Shown one piece after another: positions 19,256 to 30,966 of a DNA stretch of 64,000 bases. Each line of letters begins with the position of its first letter. Positions within the stretch are counted from its first letter, which is position 1. The notes beneath the pieces were generated by a model, which had not been told where the DNA came from, ran no database searches, and worked only from the letters and a program-made list of their open reading frames with translations. The translations under genes were made by a program, and so were the position numbers. Source of the stretch: Variovorax paradoxus (lineage in GTDB: Bacteria; Pseudomonadota; Gammaproteobacteria; Burkholderiales; Burkholderiaceae_C); the NCBI RefSeq assembly GCF_022009635.1, contig NZ_CP091716.1, forward strand, positions 5,291,501-5,355,500, written 5' to 3'.

Positions 19256-19397
19256 TTATGCTGATTGTTAGCAGATTGTTGTAAGGGAGTTTTCCGCGGC
19301 ATGCAGCCAAGGGCAGGCACACCTTCAAATGTTGCGCAAAGCCTTTGTTGCACGCCATCGGGCCTAAAGCCCACTGACTCTTGATGGAGGCGTGACC

Positions 19398-21320
19398 ATG
19401 GATGTGATCAGCAACTTTGCCGCCCGCTACGAGCGCACCCGCGAGGAAGTCATCTCGCTGCAGGACTACCTGGACATCTGCAAGCGCGATCCCACCGCGT
19501 ATGCCACCGCCTCCGAGCGAATGCTCAAGGCCATCGGCGAGCCGGAGTTGGTCGACACGCGCAACGACCCCCGTCTTTCGCGCATCTTCGCCAACAAGGT
19601 CATCAAGATCTACCCGGCGTTCAAGGAGTTCTACGGCATGGAAGACGCCATAGAACAGGTGGTGTCCTATTTCCGCCACGCCGCGCAGGGACTGGAAGAA
19701 AAGAAGCAAATCCTTTACCTGCTGGGGCCCGTGGGCGGTGGCAAGAGTTCCATCGCGGAGCGCCTGAAGCAGCTCATGGAGCACGTGCCCTTCTATGCGA
19801 TCCAGGGCTCGCCGGTCAACGAATCCCCGCTCGGCCTCTTCGATACGCTCGAAGACGGCGAGATCCTTGAAAAGGAATACGGTATCCCGCGCCGTTACCT
19901 GAACCGAATTCTCTCGCCCTGGGCCGTCAAGCGGCTCGAGGAGTACGGCGGCGACATCCGCCAGTTCAAGGTCGTCAAGCGCTACCCGTCGGTGCTGCGG
20001 CAGATCGCCGTCGCCAAGACCGAGCCCGGCGACGAGAACAACCAGGACATCTCCTCGCTGGTCGGCAAGGTCGACATCCGCAAGCTCGAGACCTACGCCC
20101 AGGACGACCCGGACGCCTACGCCTACTCCGGCGGCCTGTGCCTGGCCAACCAGGGGCTGCTGGAGTTCGTGGAAATGTTCAAGGCGCCCATCAAGGTGCT
20201 GCATCCGCTGCTCACCGCCACGCAGGAAAGCAACTTCAAGGGCACCGAAGGCTTCGGCGCGATTCCCTTCGACGGCATCGTGCTCGCGCACAGCAACGAG
20301 AGCGAGTGGAAGGCGTTCCGCAACAACAAGAACAACGAGGCTTTCCTCGACCGGATCTACATCGTCAAGGTGCCCTACTGCCTGCGTGCCTCGGAAGAAA
20401 TCAAGATCTACGAGAAGCTGGTGCGCAACTCGTCGCTCGCCAAGGCCCCCTGCGCCCCGGGAACGCTGCGCATGATGGCCCAGCTCTCGGTGCTCACGCG
20501 CCTGAAGGAGCCCGAGAACTCCAGCACCTTCAGCAAGATGCAGGTGTACGACGGCGAGAACCTCAAGGACACCGACCCCAAGGCCAAGTCGATCCAGGAG
20601 TACCGCGACTACGCGGGCGTCGACGAAGGCATGAGCGGCGTCTCCACGCGCTTCGCCTTCAAGATCATCTCGAAGGTCTTCAACTTCGACAGCTCCGAGG
20701 TGGCCGCGAACCCGGTGCACCTGATGTACGTGCTCGAACAGCAGATCGAGCGCGAGCAGTTCGCGCCCGAGGTCGAGCAGAAGTACATCAGCTACATCAA
20801 GGAGCTACTGGCGCCGCGCTACGCCGAGTTCATCGGCAAGGAAATCCAGACCGCCTACCTCGAGAGCTACAGCGAGTACGGCCAGAACATCTTCGACCGC
20901 TACGTGACCTACGCCGACTACTGGATCCAGGACCAGGAGTTCCGCGACGTCGACACCGGCGAAGTCTTCGACCGCGCTTCGCTCAACGCCGAACTCGAGA
21001 AGATCGAGCGGCCGGCCGGCATCGGCAACCCGAAGGACTTCCGCAACGAGATCGTCAACTTCGTGCTGCGCGCGCGGGCCGGCAACGCGGGGCGCAACCC
21101 TGCGTGGACCAGCTACGAGAAGCTGCGCGCGGTGATCGAGAAGAAGATGTTCTCCAACACCGAAGAACTGCTTCCGGTGATCAGTTTCAACACCAAGAGC
21201 AGCGCCGACGAGCAGAAGAAGCACGAGGACTTCGTGACGCGCATGGTCGAGAAGGGCTACACCGCCAAGCAGGTGCGTCTGCTCTGCGAGTGGTATCTGC
21301 GGGTGCGCAAGAGCTCTTGA
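19398..21320 (+). CDS. prkA: PrkA family serine protein kinase (YeaG)
   Basis: A 640-residue cytoplasmic protein, the usual length for PrkA/YeaG. The N-terminal AAA part has the Walker A LLGPVGGGKSSIAERLK. The C-terminal PrkA domain follows from about residue 380 and has distant kinase similarity. GGAGG at 19386-19390 is 7 nt before the ATG at 19398; an in-frame GTG at 19392 is too close to be the start. In E. coli yeaG-yeaH responds to starvation and stationary phase, and some PrkA proteins have also been described as AAA proteases. It is first in prkA-yeaH-spoVR, a conserved trio. Confidence 0.94.
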   Translation: MDVISNFAARYERTREEVISLQDYLDICKRDPTAYATASERMLKAIGEPELVDTRNDPRLSRIFANKVIKIYPAFKEFYGMEDAIEQVVSYFRHAAQGLEEKKQILYLLGPVGGGKSSIAERLKQLMEHVPFYAIQGSPVNESPLGLFDTLEDGEILEKEYGIPRRYLNRILSPWAVKRLEEYGGDIRQFKVVKRYPSVLRQIAVAKTEPGDENNQDISSLVGKVDIRKLETYAQDDPDAYAYSGGLCLANQGLLEFVEMFKAPIKVLHPLLTATQESNFKGTEGFGAIPFDGIVLAHSNESEWKAFRNNKNNEAFLDRIYIVKVPYCLRASEEIKIYEKLVRNSSLAKAPCAPGTLRMMAQLSVLTRLKEPENSSTFSKMQVYDGENLKDTDPKAKSIQEYRDYAGVDEGMSGVSTRFAFKIISKVFNFDSSEVAANPVHLMYVLEQQIEREQFAPEVEQKYISYIKELLAPRYAEFIGKEIQTAYLESYSEYGQNIFDRYVTYADYWIQDQEFRDVDTGEVFDRASLNAELEKIERPAGIGNPKDFRNEIVNFVLRARAGNAGRNPAWTSYEKLRAVIEKKMFSNTEELLPVISFNTKSSADEQKKHEDFVTRMVEKGYTAKQVRLLCEWYLRVRKSS

Positions 21321-21325
21321 TATGG

Positions 21326-21428
21326 CACACCCCCAGGCTTCGCGCACTTCGTGTCGCTTCGCCAACCCCCTTGCAGGGGGCAACGCCAGCGGCCCGGCAA
21401 AGCCGGTTCCACGGCGTTTCACGAAGGA
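21326..21428. repeat. GC-rich stem-loop repeat between prkA and yeaH
   Basis: The 140-bp gap carries several perfect small hairpins in a row, including CCCCC-ttgca-GGGGG at 21366-21380 and CCGGC-aaa-GCCGG at 21394-21406, preceded by a CTTCGCGCACTTCGTG-type self-complementary stretch. I recognise this arrangement as a repeat common in Comamonadaceae intergenic DNA. It is inserted between two genes of one operon and could affect message stability. Confidence 0.55.
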
Positions 21429-21460
21429 ACGCGTGATCCGTCATTAAGGGAGCAGACATC

Positions 21461-22753
21461 GTGGCCATCCTGCAGCAGATCATCGACCGCCGGCTATCGG
21501 GCAAGAACAAGTCCATTGGCAACCGAGAGCGCTTCCTCAGGCGCTACAAGGGGCAGATCCAGGAAGCGGTGAGGCGCGCCGTCAGCGGCCGCAACATCCG
21601 CGAACTGGAGCAAGGCGAAGACGTGACCCTGCCGCGCCACGATGTGTCCGAGCCCGTGTTCGGGCACGCGCGCGGCGGCGACCGCGAGTACGTGCACCCA
21701 GGCAACCAGGAGTACCTGAAGGGCGACCGCATCAAGCGCCCCGAAGGCGGGGGCGGCGGCGGTTCCGGCAGCGGGGAAGCCAGCGACAGCGGCGAGGGCG
21801 AGGACGACTTCGTCTTCCGCCTCACGCGCGAAGAATTCATGCGCGTCTTCTTCGACGACCTGGCGCTGCCGCACCTCATTCGCACGCAGATCGCCGACGT
21901 GCCCGAATGGAAGAGCCACCGCGCCGGCTTCACCAGCGACGGCTCGCCCAACAACCTGCACGTGGTGCGCTCGATGCGCGGTGCCCTCGCCCGCCGCATC
22001 GCGCTGGGCGGCGAGCCGCGCAAGGAGCTCAAGCGCCTGGAAGCGCACCTCGAGCAGCTCAAGCAGCATCCGCAAGCCGCGCAGGCCCTCATACAGAACG
22101 AGATCCGCGAGACCGAGGAGCGCATAGAAGAACTGCGCCGCACCATGCGGCACGTGCCCTACATCGACCCGATCGACCTGCGCTACCGCAACCGCGTGAA
22201 GACGCCCGTGCCCAGCGCCAAGGCGGTGATGTTCTGCCTGATGGACGTGTCGGGCTCGATGGACGAGGCGCGCAAGGACATGGCCAAGCGCTTCTTCATG
22301 CTGCTGTACATGTTCCTCACGCGGCACTACGAGAAGATCGACCTCGTGTTCCTGCGCCACCACACGCAGGCGCAGGAAGTGACCGAGGAAGAGTTCTTCC
22401 ACGCCACCGAGACCGGCGGCACCGTGGTGTCGAGCGCGCTGGTGCTCATGGACGAGATCATCAAGGCGCGCTACCCCAGCGGCGAGTGGAACGTGTACGG
22501 CGCGCAGGCCAGCGACGGCGACAACTGGCACCAGGACAGCGGCCGCTGCCGCGAGCTGCTGGTCGACAACATCCTTCCCGTGGTGCGCTACTACGCCTAC
22601 GTGCAGGTGGCCGAGACCGAGCAGAACCTGTGGCAGGAGTACCAGCAGCTCGAAGGCGTGCAGCCCAACTTCGCGATGCGCAAGGTGTCCGACGCGCAGG
22701 ACATCTATCCGGTTTTCCGCGACCTGTTCAAGAAGGAAGGGGTGACATCATGA
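21461..22753 (+). CDS. yeaH: YeaH/YhbH family protein (DUF444, VWA-like)
   Basis: A 430-residue cytoplasmic protein. The N terminus ILQQIIDRRLSGKNKSIGNRERFLRR is typical. A Gly/Ser-rich, acidic hinge lies near residues 95-115. From about residue 250 there is a von Willebrand A-like fold with a metal-site motif in CLMDVSGSMDEARKDMAKRF (Asp-x-Ser-Gly-Ser) and TGGTVVSSALVLM. Members work with PrkA and SpoVR in stress responses, but the mechanism is unknown. The start is GTG, with AAGGGAG upstream; the stop overlaps the spoVR start as ATGA. Confidence 0.92.
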   Translation: MAILQQIIDRRLSGKNKSIGNRERFLRRYKGQIQEAVRRAVSGRNIRELEQGEDVTLPRHDVSEPVFGHARGGDREYVHPGNQEYLKGDRIKRPEGGGGGGSGSGEASDSGEGEDDFVFRLTREEFMRVFFDDLALPHLIRTQIADVPEWKSHRAGFTSDGSPNNLHVVRSMRGALARRIALGGEPRKELKRLEAHLEQLKQHPQAAQALIQNEIRETEERIEELRRTMRHVPYIDPIDLRYRNRVKTPVPSAKAVMFCLMDVSGSMDEARKDMAKRFFMLLYMFLTRHYEKIDLVFLRHHTQAQEVTEEEFFHATETGGTVVSSALVLMDEIIKARYPSGEWNVYGAQASDGDNWHQDSGRCRELLVDNILPVVRYYAYVQVAETEQNLWQEYQQLEGVQPNFAMRKVSDAQDIYPVFRDLFKKEGVTS

Positions 22754-24753: not shown

Positions 24754-25722
24754 TTATGGTCTCGCGCCCGCCCTGCGGCGCCGCGCCGCCGATGACCCGA
24801 CGTAGTAGTTGTAAGAGTCGATGTCGACCACGCAGCGCGCCATCAGGTCGACGAAGGCCCGCAGCTTCTGCCCCATGTAGCGCTGGCGCTGGTAGGCGCA
24901 GTAGATGCGGCGCGGCTCGGGCTGCCACTGCGGCAGCACCGGCGCGAGCACGCCCTGCTCCACCTCCGGCCGCACGAAGAAAGCTGGCAGCAGCGCGATG
25001 CCAAGGCCGTCGATGCAAAAGGTCTTCATGACCCAGTGGTCGTTGGTCTCGGAGGCGGGCTCCGGCTCGAAGGCAAAACTCTGCGCGCCCGACACCAGCA
25101 GCACCTGCGAGCGCCCCGAAGGCTCCTTCATCACGATGGACTGGTGCGCCGCCAGCTCCGCCGGCGAAGACGGGGTGCCGTGCCGCGCCAGGTACTGCGG
25201 GCTCGCAAAGAGCCCGTAGTTCAGCCGGCCGAGCAGCTTGGCCACGAGGTTCGGCGCGTCGGGCGGCTCGGAGCACACATAGCAGTCGACGTCGCCGATC
25301 CGCGGCGCGTGGAAGCCGTTGGCCACATCGAGCTGGCAGCGCACCTCGGGGTGCGACTCCAGGAACAGCTTGACCACATGGCAGACGAAGGAAGTGCTGA
25401 ACTGCGTATCCGACAGCAGCGAGAGGCGGCCCGACACGCCCGTGGTCAGCTCGTGGATCTCGGTGCTGGCTGCCTCCAGCCGGCCCGTGACTTCGTCGAG
25501 CAGCCCCTCGCCGCGCAGCAGGAAGGCGCGCCCCGCCTCGGTGAGCGCGATGCGGCGCGGGCTGCGCAGCAGCAGTTGCGCGCCCAGCAGCTCTTCCAGC
25601 CGCGTGAGCTGCCGGCTCAGCGTGGCCTTGGACGTGCCCGAAAGGCTTTCGGCCTTGGTCAGGCTGCCGCTCCTGGCGACCAGCACGAAGGCCTCGACCA
25701 GGGCAAGGTCGATCCGGCTCAT
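24754..25722 (-). CDS. LysR-family transcriptional regulator
   Basis: A 322-residue regulator. The N-terminal helix-turn-helix reads ALVEAFVLVARSGSLTKAES and GTSKATLSRQLTRLEELLGA; the effector domain starts near residue 90 with SGRLSLLSDTQFS. It is divergent from the Rieske/oxygenase operon across a 114-bp gap that has ATGAA/TTCAT inverted repeats, so it is the probable activator of that operon. The C terminus is slightly long and Arg-rich. The effector would be the demethylase substrate or a product of it; this is inference. Confidence 0.9.
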   Translation of the reverse strand: MSRIDLALVEAFVLVARSGSLTKAESLSGTSKATLSRQLTRLEELLGAQLLLRSPRRIALTEAGRAFLLRGEGLLDEVTGRLEAASTEIHELTTGVSGRLSLLSDTQFSTSFVCHVVKLFLESHPEVRCQLDVANGFHAPRIGDVDCYVCSEPPDAPNLVAKLLGRLNYGLFASPQYLARHGTPSSPAELAAHQSIVMKEPSGRSQVLLVSGAQSFAFEPEPASETNDHWVMKTFCIDGLGIALLPAFFVRPEVEQGVLAPVLPQWQPEPRRIYCAYQRQRYMGQKLRAFVDLMARCVVDIDSYNYYVGSSAARRRRAGARP

Positions 25723-25836: not shown

Positions 25837-26508
25837 ATGAACACACAGAACTCCGCCGCCTGGCACCCCGTCGCGCGCTCGGCCGACCTGCGCCCGGGCG
25901 ACAACATCGTCGCCGGCTTCGCCGAAGGCCAGGAACTCGCGCTCTGGCGAGCCGCCGACGGCACCGCCCAAGCCTGGGAAAACCGCTGCCCGCACCGCAG
26001 CGTGCGCTTCACGCTGGGGCAGGTGGTCGACAACCATCTGGCCTGCGCGTATCACGGCTGGCAGTACGAAGCCGGCAGCGGCCAGTGCACCCGCATTCCC
26101 GCGCACCCGGCCATGCCGGCACCGCGCAACGTGTGCGCCAGGACCTTCGCCGCGGCGGAGGCGGCAGGGATGCTGTGGGTCCATTTGTCGCCACAAGCGC
26201 CCGCCGCGCCGCCGGCACTGGCCGATGCCGTGCCCGCCGGCTGGCACTTCTGCCGCACGCTGACCGTGAACGCGCCCGCCGACGCGGTGAGAGAAGCATT
26301 GGCGCAACGCGGCCTGGTCGCCGGCACGGCTTCGGGCGCCTGGCGTGGCCGGCTCGGCGAGGCGGCTGTCGCCGCGCTCGTCCTCGACGCCCAGCCCCGG
26401 CTCGCCTTCATCCACCTCTGGACGGACGCGCCCCAGGGCTCCGCCGCCATGCAGGCCCTGCACACCGCCGCGCGCAACCTGCGCGGCGACATCGAAGCCC
26501 TCGGCTGA
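25837..26508 (+). CDS. Stand-alone Rieske [2Fe-2S] protein with C-terminal oxygenase-like remnant
   Basis: A 223-residue protein. Residues 10-105 are a complete oxygenase-type Rieske domain: NRCPHRSVRF supplies Cys51 and His53, LACAYHGWQYE supplies Cys70 and His73. The spacing (16 residues between His53 and Cys70) is that of ring-hydroxylating oxygenase alpha subunits, not of small ferredoxins. Residues 115-223 resemble a degenerate or shortened START-like part and lack the 2-His-1-Asp iron site. The ATG at 25837 is preferred; an in-frame ATG at 25777 has no support. It is followed 8 bp later by an oxygenase that lacks a Rieske domain, so it presumably supplies that enzyme's electron-transfer cluster. 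Confidence 0.82.
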   Translation: MNTQNSAAWHPVARSADLRPGDNIVAGFAEGQELALWRAADGTAQAWENRCPHRSVRFTLGQVVDNHLACAYHGWQYEAGSGQCTRIPAHPAMPAPRNVCARTFAAAEAAGMLWVHLSPQAPAAPPALADAVPAGWHFCRTLTVNAPADAVREALAQRGLVAGTASGAWRGRLGEAAVAALVLDAQPRLAFIHLWTDAPQGSAAMQALHTAARNLRGDIEALG

Positions 26509-26516
26509 AAGACACC

Positions 26517-27362
26517 ATGCCCTTCGTCTCCGACGACCCCAACATGCTCGACGACTGGCTCGTCATCGGCCCCGCCGCGCCCGCGCCGCGCACCACCCGC
26601 CTGCTCGGCGAAACCGTGCAACTGTGGATCGACCCGGAAGGCACGCCCCAGTGCCGCCTCGCCGACCGGCCGCTGACCGTGCAGTCGCGCTACGGCTATC
26701 TCTGGGCCTGCCCCAGCGGCAACCCGGCGCGCCCGCTGTTCGACTTTCCCGAATACAGCGAGCCCGGCCGCCGCACCATCGACTGCGGCGGCATCGGCGT
26801 GGCGGTGTCTGGCCTGCGCGTGATCGAGAACTTCCTGGACATGGCGCACTTTCCCTTCGTGCATGCCGACTATCTCGGCAAGGTGCCGCACACCGAGGTG
26901 GCGCAATACCAAGTGCAGGTCGAACCCGCCACCGGCGAGATCTGGGCGACCGACTGCCGCTTCTGGCAGCCGCGGGCCTCGGCCGCGCACGATTCGTCGG
27001 GCAGCGAGGTGCTCTACAAGTACCGCGTGATGCAGCCCTTCTCGGCCATGCTCTACAAGTCGAGCTTCCGCGCGGGCGAACTCGACGCCATCGGCCTCTT
27101 CCTGCAGCCCGTCGACGACGAGCACGTCATCGCCCACACCATGCTCGCCTGCTTCGACGACGACTCCACCGACGCAGAACTCATTGCCTTCCAGCACACC
27201 ATCTTCGGGCAGGACAAGCCCATCCTGGAGAACCATGCCTTCAAGCGCATGCCGCTCGAAGGCCGCGCCGAAACGCCGACGCGCGGCGACACGTCCTCCG
27301 TCACCTACCGGCGCTGGCTGCGCGAGCGCGGCATGCGCTTCGGCGTGAGGGCGGCGGCATGA
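26517..27362 (+). CDS. Rieske-less non-haem iron oxygenase, NdmC-like putative demethylase
   Basis: A 281-residue protein containing the catalytic domain of Rieske oxygenases without the Rieske cluster. The N terminus DDWLVIGPAAPAPRTTRLLG and VQLW match the usual lead-in, but the CxH/CxxH cluster region is missing and the sequence jumps to VQSRYGYLWACP. The mononuclear iron site is intact: Asp108, His111 and His116 in ENFLDMAHFPFVH, and Asp233 in IFGQDKPILE. Such truncation is known in NdmC of caffeine-degrading Pseudomonas, which borrows a Rieske cluster from a partner. Neighbours are a separate Rieske protein, a GST-like protein (ATGA overlap) and formaldehyde-oxidation genes, which point to N- or O-demethylation. 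The substrate is unknown. Confidence 0.82.
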   Translation: MPFVSDDPNMLDDWLVIGPAAPAPRTTRLLGETVQLWIDPEGTPQCRLADRPLTVQSRYGYLWACPSGNPARPLFDFPEYSEPGRRTIDCGGIGVAVSGLRVIENFLDMAHFPFVHADYLGKVPHTEVAQYQVQVEPATGEIWATDCRFWQPRASAAHDSSGSEVLYKYRVMQPFSAMLYKSSFRAGELDAIGLFLQPVDDEHVIAHTMLACFDDDSTDAELIAFQHTIFGQDKPILENHAFKRMPLEGRAETPTRGDTSSVTYRRWLRERGMRFGVRAAA

Positions 27363-28003
27363 CGGTGAAGCTGTACGACTACCCGCTGTCGGGCAACTGC
27401 TTCAAGGTGCGGCAGATGCTGGCGTGGCTCGGCGTCGAATACCAGACTGTGCCGGTCGATTTCTTTCCCGGCCGCGAACACAAGTCGGCCGCGTTCCTGG
27501 CCCACGTGAACCCGCTCGGCCAGTTGCCGGTGCTCGACGACGACGGCTTCGTGCTGCGCGACGCGCAGGCCATCCTGGTCTACCTCGCGAGCCGCTACGA
27601 CCCGCATGGCCGCTGGTATCCGCAAGACCCGAAGTTGCGCGGCCAGATCGCGATGTGGCTCGCGACCGCCGACGAGATCACCCGAACCGCGTCGGCCGCG
27701 CGGCTGCACGACGCCCTCGGCTACCACCACCTGGACATCGAGGCCTGCCGCGACGGCGCGCGTGCCGTGTTCCGCGTGCTCGACGACCACCTCGCCGAGC
27801 AGGCCGGCGCCGGCCTGCGCTGGCTCGCGTCGGCGCCCGAGCCGACCATTGCCGACATCGCCTGCTTTCCCTATGTGGCGCTGGCGGGCGAAGGCGGCGT
27901 TTCGCTCGACGAATTTCCCGCACTGCGAAACTGGGTCTGGAATGTCCGGCACGTGCACGGGTTCATCGGCATGTCGGGTATCTTCCCCGCTGGCCCCGCC
28001 TGA
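27359..28003 (+). CDS. Glutathione S-transferase-like protein (possible NdmE-like subunit)
   Basis: A 214-residue GST-fold protein. The N-terminal thioredoxin-like domain begins VKLYDYPLSGNCFKVRQML, with Ser11 where many bacterial GSTs have their catalytic Ser or Cys. FLAHVNPLGQLPVLDDDGF and DAQAILVYLA give the glutathione-binding Pro and the Asp-Ala-Gln motif. An all-helical C-terminal domain holds PTIADIACFPYVA. It overlaps the oxygenase stop by ATGA, tighter than needed for an unrelated enzyme. In the caffeine pathway a GST-like protein (NdmE) is a structural partner of the Rieske-less NdmC, so a structural role is plausible; ordinary glutathione transfer is the alternative. Confidence 0.86.
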   Translation: MTVKLYDYPLSGNCFKVRQMLAWLGVEYQTVPVDFFPGREHKSAAFLAHVNPLGQLPVLDDDGFVLRDAQAILVYLASRYDPHGRWYPQDPKLRGQIAMWLATADEITRTASAARLHDALGYHHLDIEACRDGARAVFRVLDDHLAEQAGAGLRWLASAPEPTIADIACFPYVALAGEGGVSLDEFPALRNWVWNVRHVHGFIGMSGIFPAGPA

Positions 28004-28042: not shown

Positions 28043-29149
<1,107 letters not shown>

Positions 29150-29170: not shown

Positions 29171-30091
29171 ATGAACCGCATGGAGCCCTTGCGCAAGATC
29201 GCGGCCGGTGTCCTCGAAGTCGCGTACTTCGAGACCGGCCCCGCCGACGGCCCGCCGGTGCTGCTGATGCACGGATTTCCGTACGACATCCACACCTATG
29301 CGGAAGTCGCGCCCATGCTGGCCGATCAGGGCTGCCGCGTGATCGTGCCGTACCTGCGCGGCTACGGCGCCACGCGCTTCCTGAGCGACGCCACGCCGCG
29401 TTCTGGCGAGCAGGCCGCGCTCGGCGCCGACCTCCTCGCGCTGCTCGATGCGCTGAAGATCGAACGCGCGGTGCTGGCCGGCTACGACTGGGGCGGCCGC
29501 GCCGCCTGCGTGGTCGCGGCACTGTGGCCGGAGCGCGTGGCGGGGCTGGTGTCCTTCAACAGCTACAACATCCAGAACATCGCGAAGGCGATGGAGCCCG
29601 ACACGCCGGCCAACGAGCACAGCCTCTGGTATCAGTACTACTTTCACAGCGAGCGCGGCCGCGCGGGCCTCGAGAAAGACCGCAAGGCTTTCACGAAGCT
29701 GCTGTGGAAGCTGTGGTCGCCCACCTGGCAATTCGACGATGCGACCTTCGAGCGCAGCGCCGCCGCTTTCGACCACCCCGACTTCGTGGACGTGGTGATC
29801 CAGTCGTACCGCCACCGCTTCGGCCTGGTGCCTGGCGATCCGGCCTACGCCGACATCGAGCGCCGCCTGGCGGCCCAGCCCACCATCACCGTGCCGACCA
29901 TCACCTTCGACGGCATCGACGACGGCGTGCGTCCACCCGCGCAGGCGTCGGCCCATGCGCACCGCTTCGGCGGCCAGCGCTCGCACCGTCTCGTGCCCGG
30001 CGTGGGCCACAACATGCCGCAGGAAGCGCCGCGCACATTCGCCGACGCCGTGCTCGAGCTGGCCCCCGCGCTGCGCAAGAACCCGACATGA
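29171..30091 (+). CDS. Alpha/beta hydrolase with Asp nucleophile (epoxide hydrolase/dehalogenase-like)
   Basis: A 306-residue cytoplasmic hydrolase. The oxyanion segment is LMHGFPYDIHTYAEVAP and the nucleophile elbow is AGYDWGGRAA, with Asp instead of Ser. Asp nucleophiles are typical of epoxide hydrolases and haloalkane or haloacetate dehalogenases. The catalytic His lies in VPGVGHNMPQEAP. AGGAAG precedes the ATG, and the stop overlaps fghA by ATGA. It sits between the two glutathione-dependent formaldehyde genes, which is not a standard arrangement; a role on the demethylated product is possible but unproven. Confidence 0.82.
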   Translation: MNRMEPLRKIAAGVLEVAYFETGPADGPPVLLMHGFPYDIHTYAEVAPMLADQGCRVIVPYLRGYGATRFLSDATPRSGEQAALGADLLALLDALKIERAVLAGYDWGGRAACVVAALWPERVAGLVSFNSYNIQNIAKAMEPDTPANEHSLWYQYYFHSERGRAGLEKDRKAFTKLLWKLWSPTWQFDDATFERSAAAFDHPDFVDVVIQSYRHRFGLVPGDPAYADIERRLAAQPTITVPTITFDGIDDGVRPPAQASAHAHRFGGQRSHRLVPGVGHNMPQEAPRTFADAVLELAPALRKNPT

Positions 30092-30966
30092 CAGACAACA
30101 CACCCAAGACCCTTTCCGAGCATCACGCCTTCGGCGGCGTGCAGAGCTTCCATGAGCACCGCTCGCATGAAATCGGCCTGCCGATGCGCTTCTCGGTCTA
30201 CCTGCCGCCGCAGGCCGCGAACGGCCCCGTGCCCGCCCTGCTCTACCTCGCGGGCCTGACCTGCAACGAAGAGACCTTCGCGGTGAAAGCCGGCGCGCAG
30301 CGCATGGCCGCGAGCCTGGGGCTGGCGCTGATCGCGCCCGACACCAGCCCGCGCGGCGCCGAGGTCGAGACCCTTCCGGGCGCCAAGGACAACTGGGACT
30401 TCGGCATCGGCGCGGGCTTCTACCTCGACGCGCTCGCCGAGCCCTGGGCCGCGCACTGGCGCATGGAAAGCTGGATCGTGCACGAGCTGCTGCCGCTGGT
30501 GGCCAAGCACTTCGCCGTCGACGACCACCGCATCGGCATCTTCGGCCATTCGATGGGCGGGCACGGCGCGCTCACGCTGGCGCTGCGGCATCCGGGGCGC
30601 TTCAAGTCGCTCTCGGCCTTTGCGCCGATCTGCGCGCCCACGCAGTGCCCGTGGGGCGAGAAGGCCTTCGCCGGCTATCTGGGGGCGCCCGGCGACGACC
30701 GCGCCCAGTGGCTGGCGCACGACGCCAGCGCGCTCATGAAGTCGCAGGTGGCCGCGCCCTATCCGCAGGGCATCCTGATCGACCAGGGCCTGAGCGACAA
30801 ATTCCTCGCGGAGCAACTGCACCCCGAGGTGTTCGAGGCCGCCTGCTTCGCCGCCGGCCAGCCGCTCGTTCTGCGTCGCCACGCGGGCTACGACCACGGC
30901 TACTACTTCATCCAGAGCTTCATGGCCGACCACATCGCGCACCACGCGCAAAGCCTGCACGCCTGA
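30088..30966 (+). CDS. fghA: S-formylglutathione hydrolase
   Basis: A 292-residue serine esterase of the esterase-D family. It hydrolyses S-formylglutathione to formate and glutathione, completing formaldehyde oxidation after FrmA. Family signatures are PALLYLAGLTCNEETFAVKAG, APDTSPRGAEV, the nucleophile elbow IFGHSMGGHGAL, and the His of RHAGYDHGYYFIQSF. WMESWIVHELLPLV-type sequence precedes the nucleophile. The start is coupled to the preceding hydrolase by ATGA. It is the last gene of the predicted demethylase operon. Confidence 0.95.
   Translation: MTDNTPKTLSEHHAFGGVQSFHEHRSHEIGLPMRFSVYLPPQAANGPVPALLYLAGLTCNEETFAVKAGAQRMAASLGLALIAPDTSPRGAEVETLPGAKDNWDFGIGAGFYLDALAEPWAAHWRMESWIVHELLPLVAKHFAVDDHRIGIFGHSMGGHGALTLALRHPGRFKSLSAFAPICAPTQCPWGEKAFAGYLGAPGDDRAQWLAHDASALMKSQVAAPYPQGILIDQGLSDKFLAEQLHPEVFEAACFAAGQPLVLRRHAGYDHGYYFIQSFMADHIAHHAQSLHA

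Follow-up and report, generated by a model that had tools for sequence, protein, structure and literature searches.

Can a Rieske oxygenase be built with its two metal centres on two different proteins? The question is raised by three tightly packed genes at positions 25837-28003 of a 64,000-nucleotide stretch of the Variovorax paradoxus genome (NZ_CP091716.1, positions 5,291,501 to 5,355,500; hereafter the window), which encode a Rieske protein of 223 residues (25837..26508), an oxygenase of 281 residues (26517..27362) and a glutathione S-transferase (GST)-like protein of 214 residues (27359..28003), all on the forward strand. We find a natural division of the enzyme: the Rieske cluster lies on one alpha-type subunit and the mononuclear iron site on another that complements it, a GST-like protein accompanies both, and the arrangement is conserved. 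Judged from the sequences, the triplet probably encodes an NdmCDE-type Rieske N-demethylase in split form, made of two paralogous alpha subunits each lacking what the other keeps (probability roughly 0.8); the source on NdmCDE of Pseudomonas putida CBB5 describes a Rieske-less oxygenase, a GST-like protein and a Rieske centre on another protein (PMC4408171).

Reciprocal loss of the two metal sites

In the Rieske partner (alpha-prime), an intact Rieske domain with the cluster residues C51-P-H53 and C70-A-Y-H73 (Pfam Rieske PF00355, E 1.2e-20) is followed by about 100 residues whose predicted fold is that of a catalytic domain lacking the iron site. The oxygenase (alpha) matches VanA_C (PF19112, E 9.3e-21) and, more weakly, KshA_C, with no Rieske match, its N-terminus being a Rieske-domain scaffold devoid of the cluster-binding loops; it contains the iron ligands H111, H116 and D233, together with D108, the bridging Asp through which the iron site is connected to the Rieske cluster of the adjacent subunit. 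The two genes are separated by 8 bp, and the stop of the oxygenase gene overlaps the start of the GST gene as ATGA at 27359-27362; the product of the latter, an NdmE-type protein, matches GST_N and GST_C_2. An earlier reading of the locus made from the letters alone (the sequence-only reading) had assigned a Rieske domain to one gene, an iron site to the next and a GST-like protein to the overlapping third, and these assignments were confirmed down to the individual residues, with the refinement that D108 is the bridge and not an iron ligand.

The same division runs through the homologues. Among the best 120 of 846 oxygenase matches in the protein database and the best 120 of at least 250 Rieske-partner matches, each protein has its own metal motif intact in 120/120 cases, while the Rieske motif is kept in 0/120 oxygenase homologues and the iron motif in 0/120 Rieske-partner homologues; full-length relatives keep both motifs (11/11). 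In the alignments, the Rieske motif C-x-H ... C-x2-H was found in 41/41 Rieske partners and 0/52 oxygenases, and the iron motif D-x2-H-x4-H in 52/52 oxygenases and 0/41 Rieske partners, with D233 invariant in the same 52 oxygenases. The bridging Asp108 is present in all 52 of these chains, which have no cluster of their own, and its retention fits an entry of electrons from alpha-prime.

The predicted fold of the Rieske partner (predicted local distance difference test score, pLDDT, 94) aligns over its full length with a complete Rieske-oxygenase alpha subunit, that of the oxygenase does so over nearly its full length, and in both folds the deviating strands surround the absent metal site; profile matches scored above 100 of 100 shuffles each. 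As both chains are predicted to fold like alpha subunits, this is an oxygenase divided between two degenerate alpha subunits that complement each other. A single oxygenase gene that simply broke in two was ruled out, since both chains retain matching parts of both domains, for which two diverged copies are needed. By profile matches and predicted fold, the Rieske partner is a degenerate alpha subunit and no simple carrier or ferredoxin; the 'small separate protein' of the sequence-only reading thus stands as to its own gene, unfused to a reductase, but not as to its nature as a simple carrier.

The three proteins also vary together. Over 65 sets (excluding nine near-copies or uncertain loci and any locus without all three genes), distances correlated between the Rieske partner and the oxygenase with r 0.91, a value that 0 of 1000 shuffles reached, between the Rieske partner and the GST with r 0.76 and between the oxygenase and the GST with r 0.80, each likewise above 1000 shuffles; all three values include shared species history. 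The GST is the best conserved of the three, with a mean identity to the window protein of 58.5% versus 48.0% for the Rieske domain and 54.3% for the oxygenase (loci other than L056-L069). The window GST retains the N-terminal L-S-G-N-C and N-P-x-G-Q-x-P stretches; the NdmE-like GST of Nocardioides immobilis (L090:8616-9266) is altered at the usual glutathione-site stretches and otherwise 51% identical to the window GST, a sequence pattern that favours a structural role of the GST rather than catalysis of formaldehyde transfer to glutathione. Actinobacteria use mycothiol. One source likewise gives no known catalytic role for NdmE (PMC8055839).

Genomic site, phylogeny and layouts

Sixty-one genomes were searched, 37 of which belong to the same genus, source genome included. 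The triplet is present in 17 of the 37, and in 17/17 loci the Rieske partner, the oxygenase and the GST occur in the same order (one GST is cut by a contig end), so the split is neither chance nor a local frameshift. A triplet not conserved in related genomes would have refuted the sequence-only reading; these 17 loci and the recurrence of the triplet in relatives do not refute it. The window-type oxygenase occurs in 16 of the 37 genomes (82-100% identical), with a further copy at 67% in G036, and 15 of the 16 copies are whole, without inner stops. After the triplet, 15 of the 17 loci carry frmA, the gene for S-(hydroxymethyl)glutathione dehydrogenase, and one of the remaining two ends with its contig. 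The distance between aroQ and frmA, measured in 31 genomes (6/37 gave no measurement), was 2286-4504 bp with the triplet in between (15/31), 5321 and 7956 bp with a fused or undetermined form (2/31), and, in the 14 genomes with neither form, 63-158 bp (8 genomes) or 1053-3083 bp (6 genomes); the triplet is thus a cassette at an often empty site. Its occurrence in a survey of the family is patchy, with an oxygenase match at E <= 1e-60 in 7/250 genomes and 4/141 genera. One genome of the family, G176, has three split-type oxygenase matches (61, 61 and 50%).

In a tree that included the nearest full-length loci (9 of the 10 loci L020-L029; L021, with no frame holding both motifs, was left out), one branch separated 25 Rieske-less from 12 full-length oxygenases with support of 95/92, and the same split was recovered in two other trees whose full-length rows were fewer or less closely related (86/87 with 99 rows and 59/91 with 46 rows). 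The 99-row tree omitted 21 near-copy or cut loci and rows of fewer than 250 residues, and L040 is labelled B in it solely because undetermined bases split its frame. These trees point to one origin of the Rieske-less oxygenases, apart from the full-length ones, and they place the window oxygenase with the former, not with full-length proteins, a grouping that would have refuted the sequence-only reading. P0250 (UniRef name: methylxanthine N7-demethylase, P. putida) shares with the window oxygenase 42% identity as well as the residues D108, H111, H116 and D233. In the 46-row tree, P0250 and its nearest relatives make up one set (100/98 for 6 rows, 88/94 for 9 rows) and the window oxygenase belongs to another (100/98 for 11 rows, 91/82 for 14 rows), the trees giving no firm order between the sets; the window oxygenase likewise falls outside the P0250 group in the tree with the nearest full-length loci. 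By tree position, the window oxygenase is therefore outside the NdmC clade.

Four layouts of one kit were observed: an NdmCDE-like fusion, separate genes, an oxygenase-reductase fusion, and the window type without a nearby reductase. Among 80 loci taken from titled genome records and classed by domain searches, some of them near-copies (L077/L078, L073/L075), 14 are Variovorax loci of the window type, and 10 others have the Rieske, oxygenase and GST genes with no reductase found (in L088 and L120 with the oxygenase on the opposite strand). In 9 loci the cluster includes a reductase gene of its own, and in 28 the reductase is fused to the Rieske domain, as in NdmD; the remaining 19 showed no complete set within the stretch examined, some being cut by contig ends and some having a distant Rieske gene. 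The reverse of NdmD, an oxygenase fused to the reductase with a separate Rieske protein, was found outside the 80 in Variovorax (L041, L042/L050); in one case it occupies the aroQ-frmA site that also holds the window cassette (L041:8524-11820, G005), and in another it is on a plasmid of Variovorax paradoxus VAI-C (L050:5307-8451).

Individual loci illustrate this range. A Pseudomonas plasmid locus (L048) has the order NdmC-D-E near hpxO and a nucleobase transporter, and Piscinibacter L070 the order Rieske-oxygenase-reductase-GST-frmA-fghA. In Azohydromonas australica (L072:5324-11670), separate Rieske, NdmC-like, reductase and GST genes are followed by two full-length oxygenases, of which the second matches NdmA (E 1e-161) and the first groups with a protein encoded beside the separate-gene set of L077, whose best match is NdmB (E 1.4e-140); by these matches, L072 resembles a full set for caffeine-type demethylation in which NdmD is divided over two genes. 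Alignment with the window Rieske partner suggests a remnant catalytic domain in the NdmD-type proteins compared. Rhizobial loci (L052, L087, L096, L133 and others) have two tandem Rieske-less oxygenase genes, falling on separate branches of the 99-row tree, followed by one NdmD-type fusion and one GST. In the open-licence literature searched, we found no description of an NdmC-type oxygenase whose Rieske protein is encoded separately.

Electron supply

No reductase of the expected type lies within the window (none at E 1e-5), as the sequence-only reading had stated, so electrons must come from outside the cassette. That reading had proposed an NdmC/NdmE-like system with the Rieske cluster on its own protein and the reductase elsewhere, a core supported by the genes, their conservation and the tree, with the qualification that relatives do have an adjacent or fused reductase. 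The interleaving of window-type and separate-reductase loci in the 99-row tree suggests that the cassette of the window's lineage probably once included the reductase and then lost it, although the exact branch of the loss is weakly supported (92/30 with 99 rows, 92/72 with 46 rows) and was not recovered when the nearest full-length loci were added.

One candidate for the partner is an orphan reductase of the source genome with no oxygenase beside it (G000:C1:6909976-6910923; L180:6959-7924), whose orthologues are at least 86% identical in the other 15 genomes with a window-type triplet (in two pieces in G007). It is present in 17/17 triplet genomes versus 8/19 others (Fisher p 1.5e-4, relatedness included), where matches of at least 73% were scored as present and those of 44-50% as absent, G012 (62% complete) was excluded, and the others include G005 and G015, whose form is fused or undetermined. 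The gene lies within a block of creatininase-family, transport, flavin adenine dinucleotide (FAD)-enzyme and RutR-like TetR genes, and the FAD-enzyme of the block is missing from the same 11 genomes as the reductase (matches <=41% in 7/11, none in 4). As relatedness is uncorrected and the reductase travels with its block, this sequence-level co-occurrence is weak evidence for a partnership with the triplet. Transposase-type genes lie near a second orphan reductase (L179), of which none of the 37 genomes has an orthologue above 64%. According to one source, reductases can serve non-native oxygenases (PMC12445004). In G007 (L046, L056), the orphan reductase and fghA are each in two reading frames, owing to sequencing error or decay.

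Function and alternative explanations

Both chains keep the remaining alpha-subunit scaffold and thus probably assemble together. Alpha and alpha-prime would form a ring of C3 symmetry, alpha3alpha'3 or similar, like that of NdmA/NdmB, with the alpha-prime Rieske cluster placed next to the bridging Asp108 of alpha; one source puts the Rieske and iron sites of adjacent subunits about 12 Å apart (PMC12445004). Electrons would pass from reduced nicotinamide adenine dinucleotide (NADH) through a flavin mononucleotide (FMN)/[2Fe-2S] reductase encoded elsewhere to the alpha-prime Rieske cluster, Asp108, the iron of alpha and O2; the N-methyl group would be hydroxylated and then released as formaldehyde, which may be converted via glutathione, FrmA and FghA to formate, and the GST-like protein may hold the complex or help its assembly. 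We infer this complex, electron route and activity, demethylation itself being suggested by the NdmA-/NdmB-like proteins beside separate-gene sets, by frmA/fghA and by genes for BMP/PnrA-type (purine-receptor-type) transporters; our best guess for the substrate, also inferred, is a mono-N-methyl purine or similar heterocycle. The transporter gene is near 49/66 non-Variovorax loci, and frmA is near 13/14 Variovorax and 11/66 non-Variovorax loci, in the latter with scores of 533-804 bits (an L092 gene scoring 32 bits was ruled out as frmA).

In the window, frmA (28043..29149, forward strand; TIGR02818 620.5 bits, cut-off 543.95) begins 39 bp 3' of the GST gene and is followed on the same strand by an alpha/beta hydrolase gene (29171..30091; PF00561, with no listed NCBIfam model above cut-off) and, with a 4 bp overlap, by the S-formylglutathione hydrolase gene fghA (30088..30966; TIGR02821 412.2 bits, cut-off 281.7). 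A divergent LysR-type gene (24754..25722, reverse strand; PF03466, PF00126) possibly encodes a regulator of the cassette and was seen in 8/17 same-genus loci within the stretch examined. In part of the clade it is placed between the triplet and aroQ; seven loci have aroQ directly upstream, without LysR. Further upstream, PrkA kinase and DUF444 genes lie in a row (19392-22753) and have no relation to the split oxygenase.

Judged by anatomy, the system would work like NdmCDE: it shares the Rieske-less oxygenase, the GST-like protein encoded alongside and the Rieske centre on another protein, and its GST is 54% identical to that of the NdmCDE-like cluster L048. By two tested sequence features, the Rieske-reductase fusion and the NdmC clade, it is not NdmCDE; the Rieske domain of NdmD is fused to a reductase, whereas the window Rieske protein has 223 residues, no reductase domain and no reductase nearby. 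NdmA and NdmB, which form an alpha3alpha'3 heterohexamer, are full-length with both metal sites, unlike the window subunits with one site each. The best sequence and structure matches of both window proteins are SxtT/GxtA, single-chain alpha3 Rieske hydroxylases in which, by contrast, one chain holds both metal sites and for which we know of no GST partner; the structure matches listed include Rieske oxygenases and one ferredoxin.

Several observations weigh against a split N-demethylase. The C-terminal profile match is modest by itself (probability 45%), the correlation of the two chains contains the species history mentioned above, the draft genome G029 has a window-type oxygenase copy (1 of 16) that shifts frame near its end, and for the reductase partner the source genome offers only candidates among 13 matches at E <= 0.001. 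The transporter gene is near just 1/14 Variovorax loci, and a frmA-type gene occurs in 36/37 genus genomes with or without the triplet (three at 63% identity only), so that, as a housekeeping neighbour, its adjacency is weaker evidence than appears. The NdmA-E cluster of P. putida CBB5 contains frmA and frmB as well (PMC4408171); unlike that cluster, the source genome has no NdmA/NdmB orthologue (best match 34%), nor do 19 genomes with the triplet or its relatives (<=37% over full length, one partial match of 42%, no match in G029), and a caffeine pathway of the known kind is not indicated.

These points leave room for other explanations. A split oxygenase acting on something other than an N-methyl group, by O-demethylation or hydroxylation and with frmA adjacent by accident, is unlikely but deserves to be taken seriously: the closest solved structures, SxtT/GxtA, are hydroxylases, and frmA stays in place without the triplet, as the gap of 63-158 bp in 8/14 triplet-less genomes measured shows; against it stand the clear frmA scores at 11/66 non-Variovorax loci (with L077/L078 and L073/L075 as near-copies), the NdmA/NdmB-like proteins adjoining separate-gene sets and the purine-receptor-type transporter gene near most relatives. 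Far less probable is a three-component oxygenase in which the Rieske protein is only a ferredoxin shuttling electrons and no structural subunit. The protein does have a Rieske motif and no iron motif, and other Rieske oxygenase systems commonly have a Rieske ferredoxin as a separate protein; in three-component systems of the naphthalene dioxygenase type, which resemble the window in having a separate Rieske protein, the oxygenase keeps its own Rieske cluster, which the window oxygenase lacks. The ferredoxin there has 103 residues (2qpz), whereas the window protein, with 223 residues instead of about 100 and a predicted alpha-subunit fold along its full length, was ruled out as a Rieske ferredoxin. 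Least probable is a decaying remnant, an enzyme no longer working in Variovorax after the clade lost reductase and transporter; the missing adjacent reductase, which Piscinibacter L070 has, the single transporter gene and the G029 frame change would agree with it, but the intact metal motifs of the homologues, the 15 whole oxygenase copies, the gene spacing and ATGA overlap kept in the window, and the reported use of reductases by non-native oxygenases speak against decay.

The split N-demethylase may have a wider meaning, for which we see about an even chance. Duplicated alpha subunits may have eroded reciprocally to an obligate pair, one giving the Rieske electron only and the other activating oxygen only, with one-way transfer across every active interface of a mixed ring; by fusion, the Rieske-bearing member of the pair would also have become the N-terminal half of NdmD-type reductases, and the GST-like protein would be the assembly factor enabling the pair. 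If so, NdmD would be a fused pseudo-oxygenase and not a reductase that acquired a Rieske domain. With one metal site per chain, each site could be changed or dosed independently, which makes the electron transfer directly testable. The NdmCDE type was already known; what is new is a layout of the caffeine-demethylase type with the metal centres on two separate subunits. The four layouts of one machine would account for the odd NdmCDE of caffeine-eating Pseudomonas; it would be one case within a broader and largely unstudied group from soil and plant-associated bacteria.

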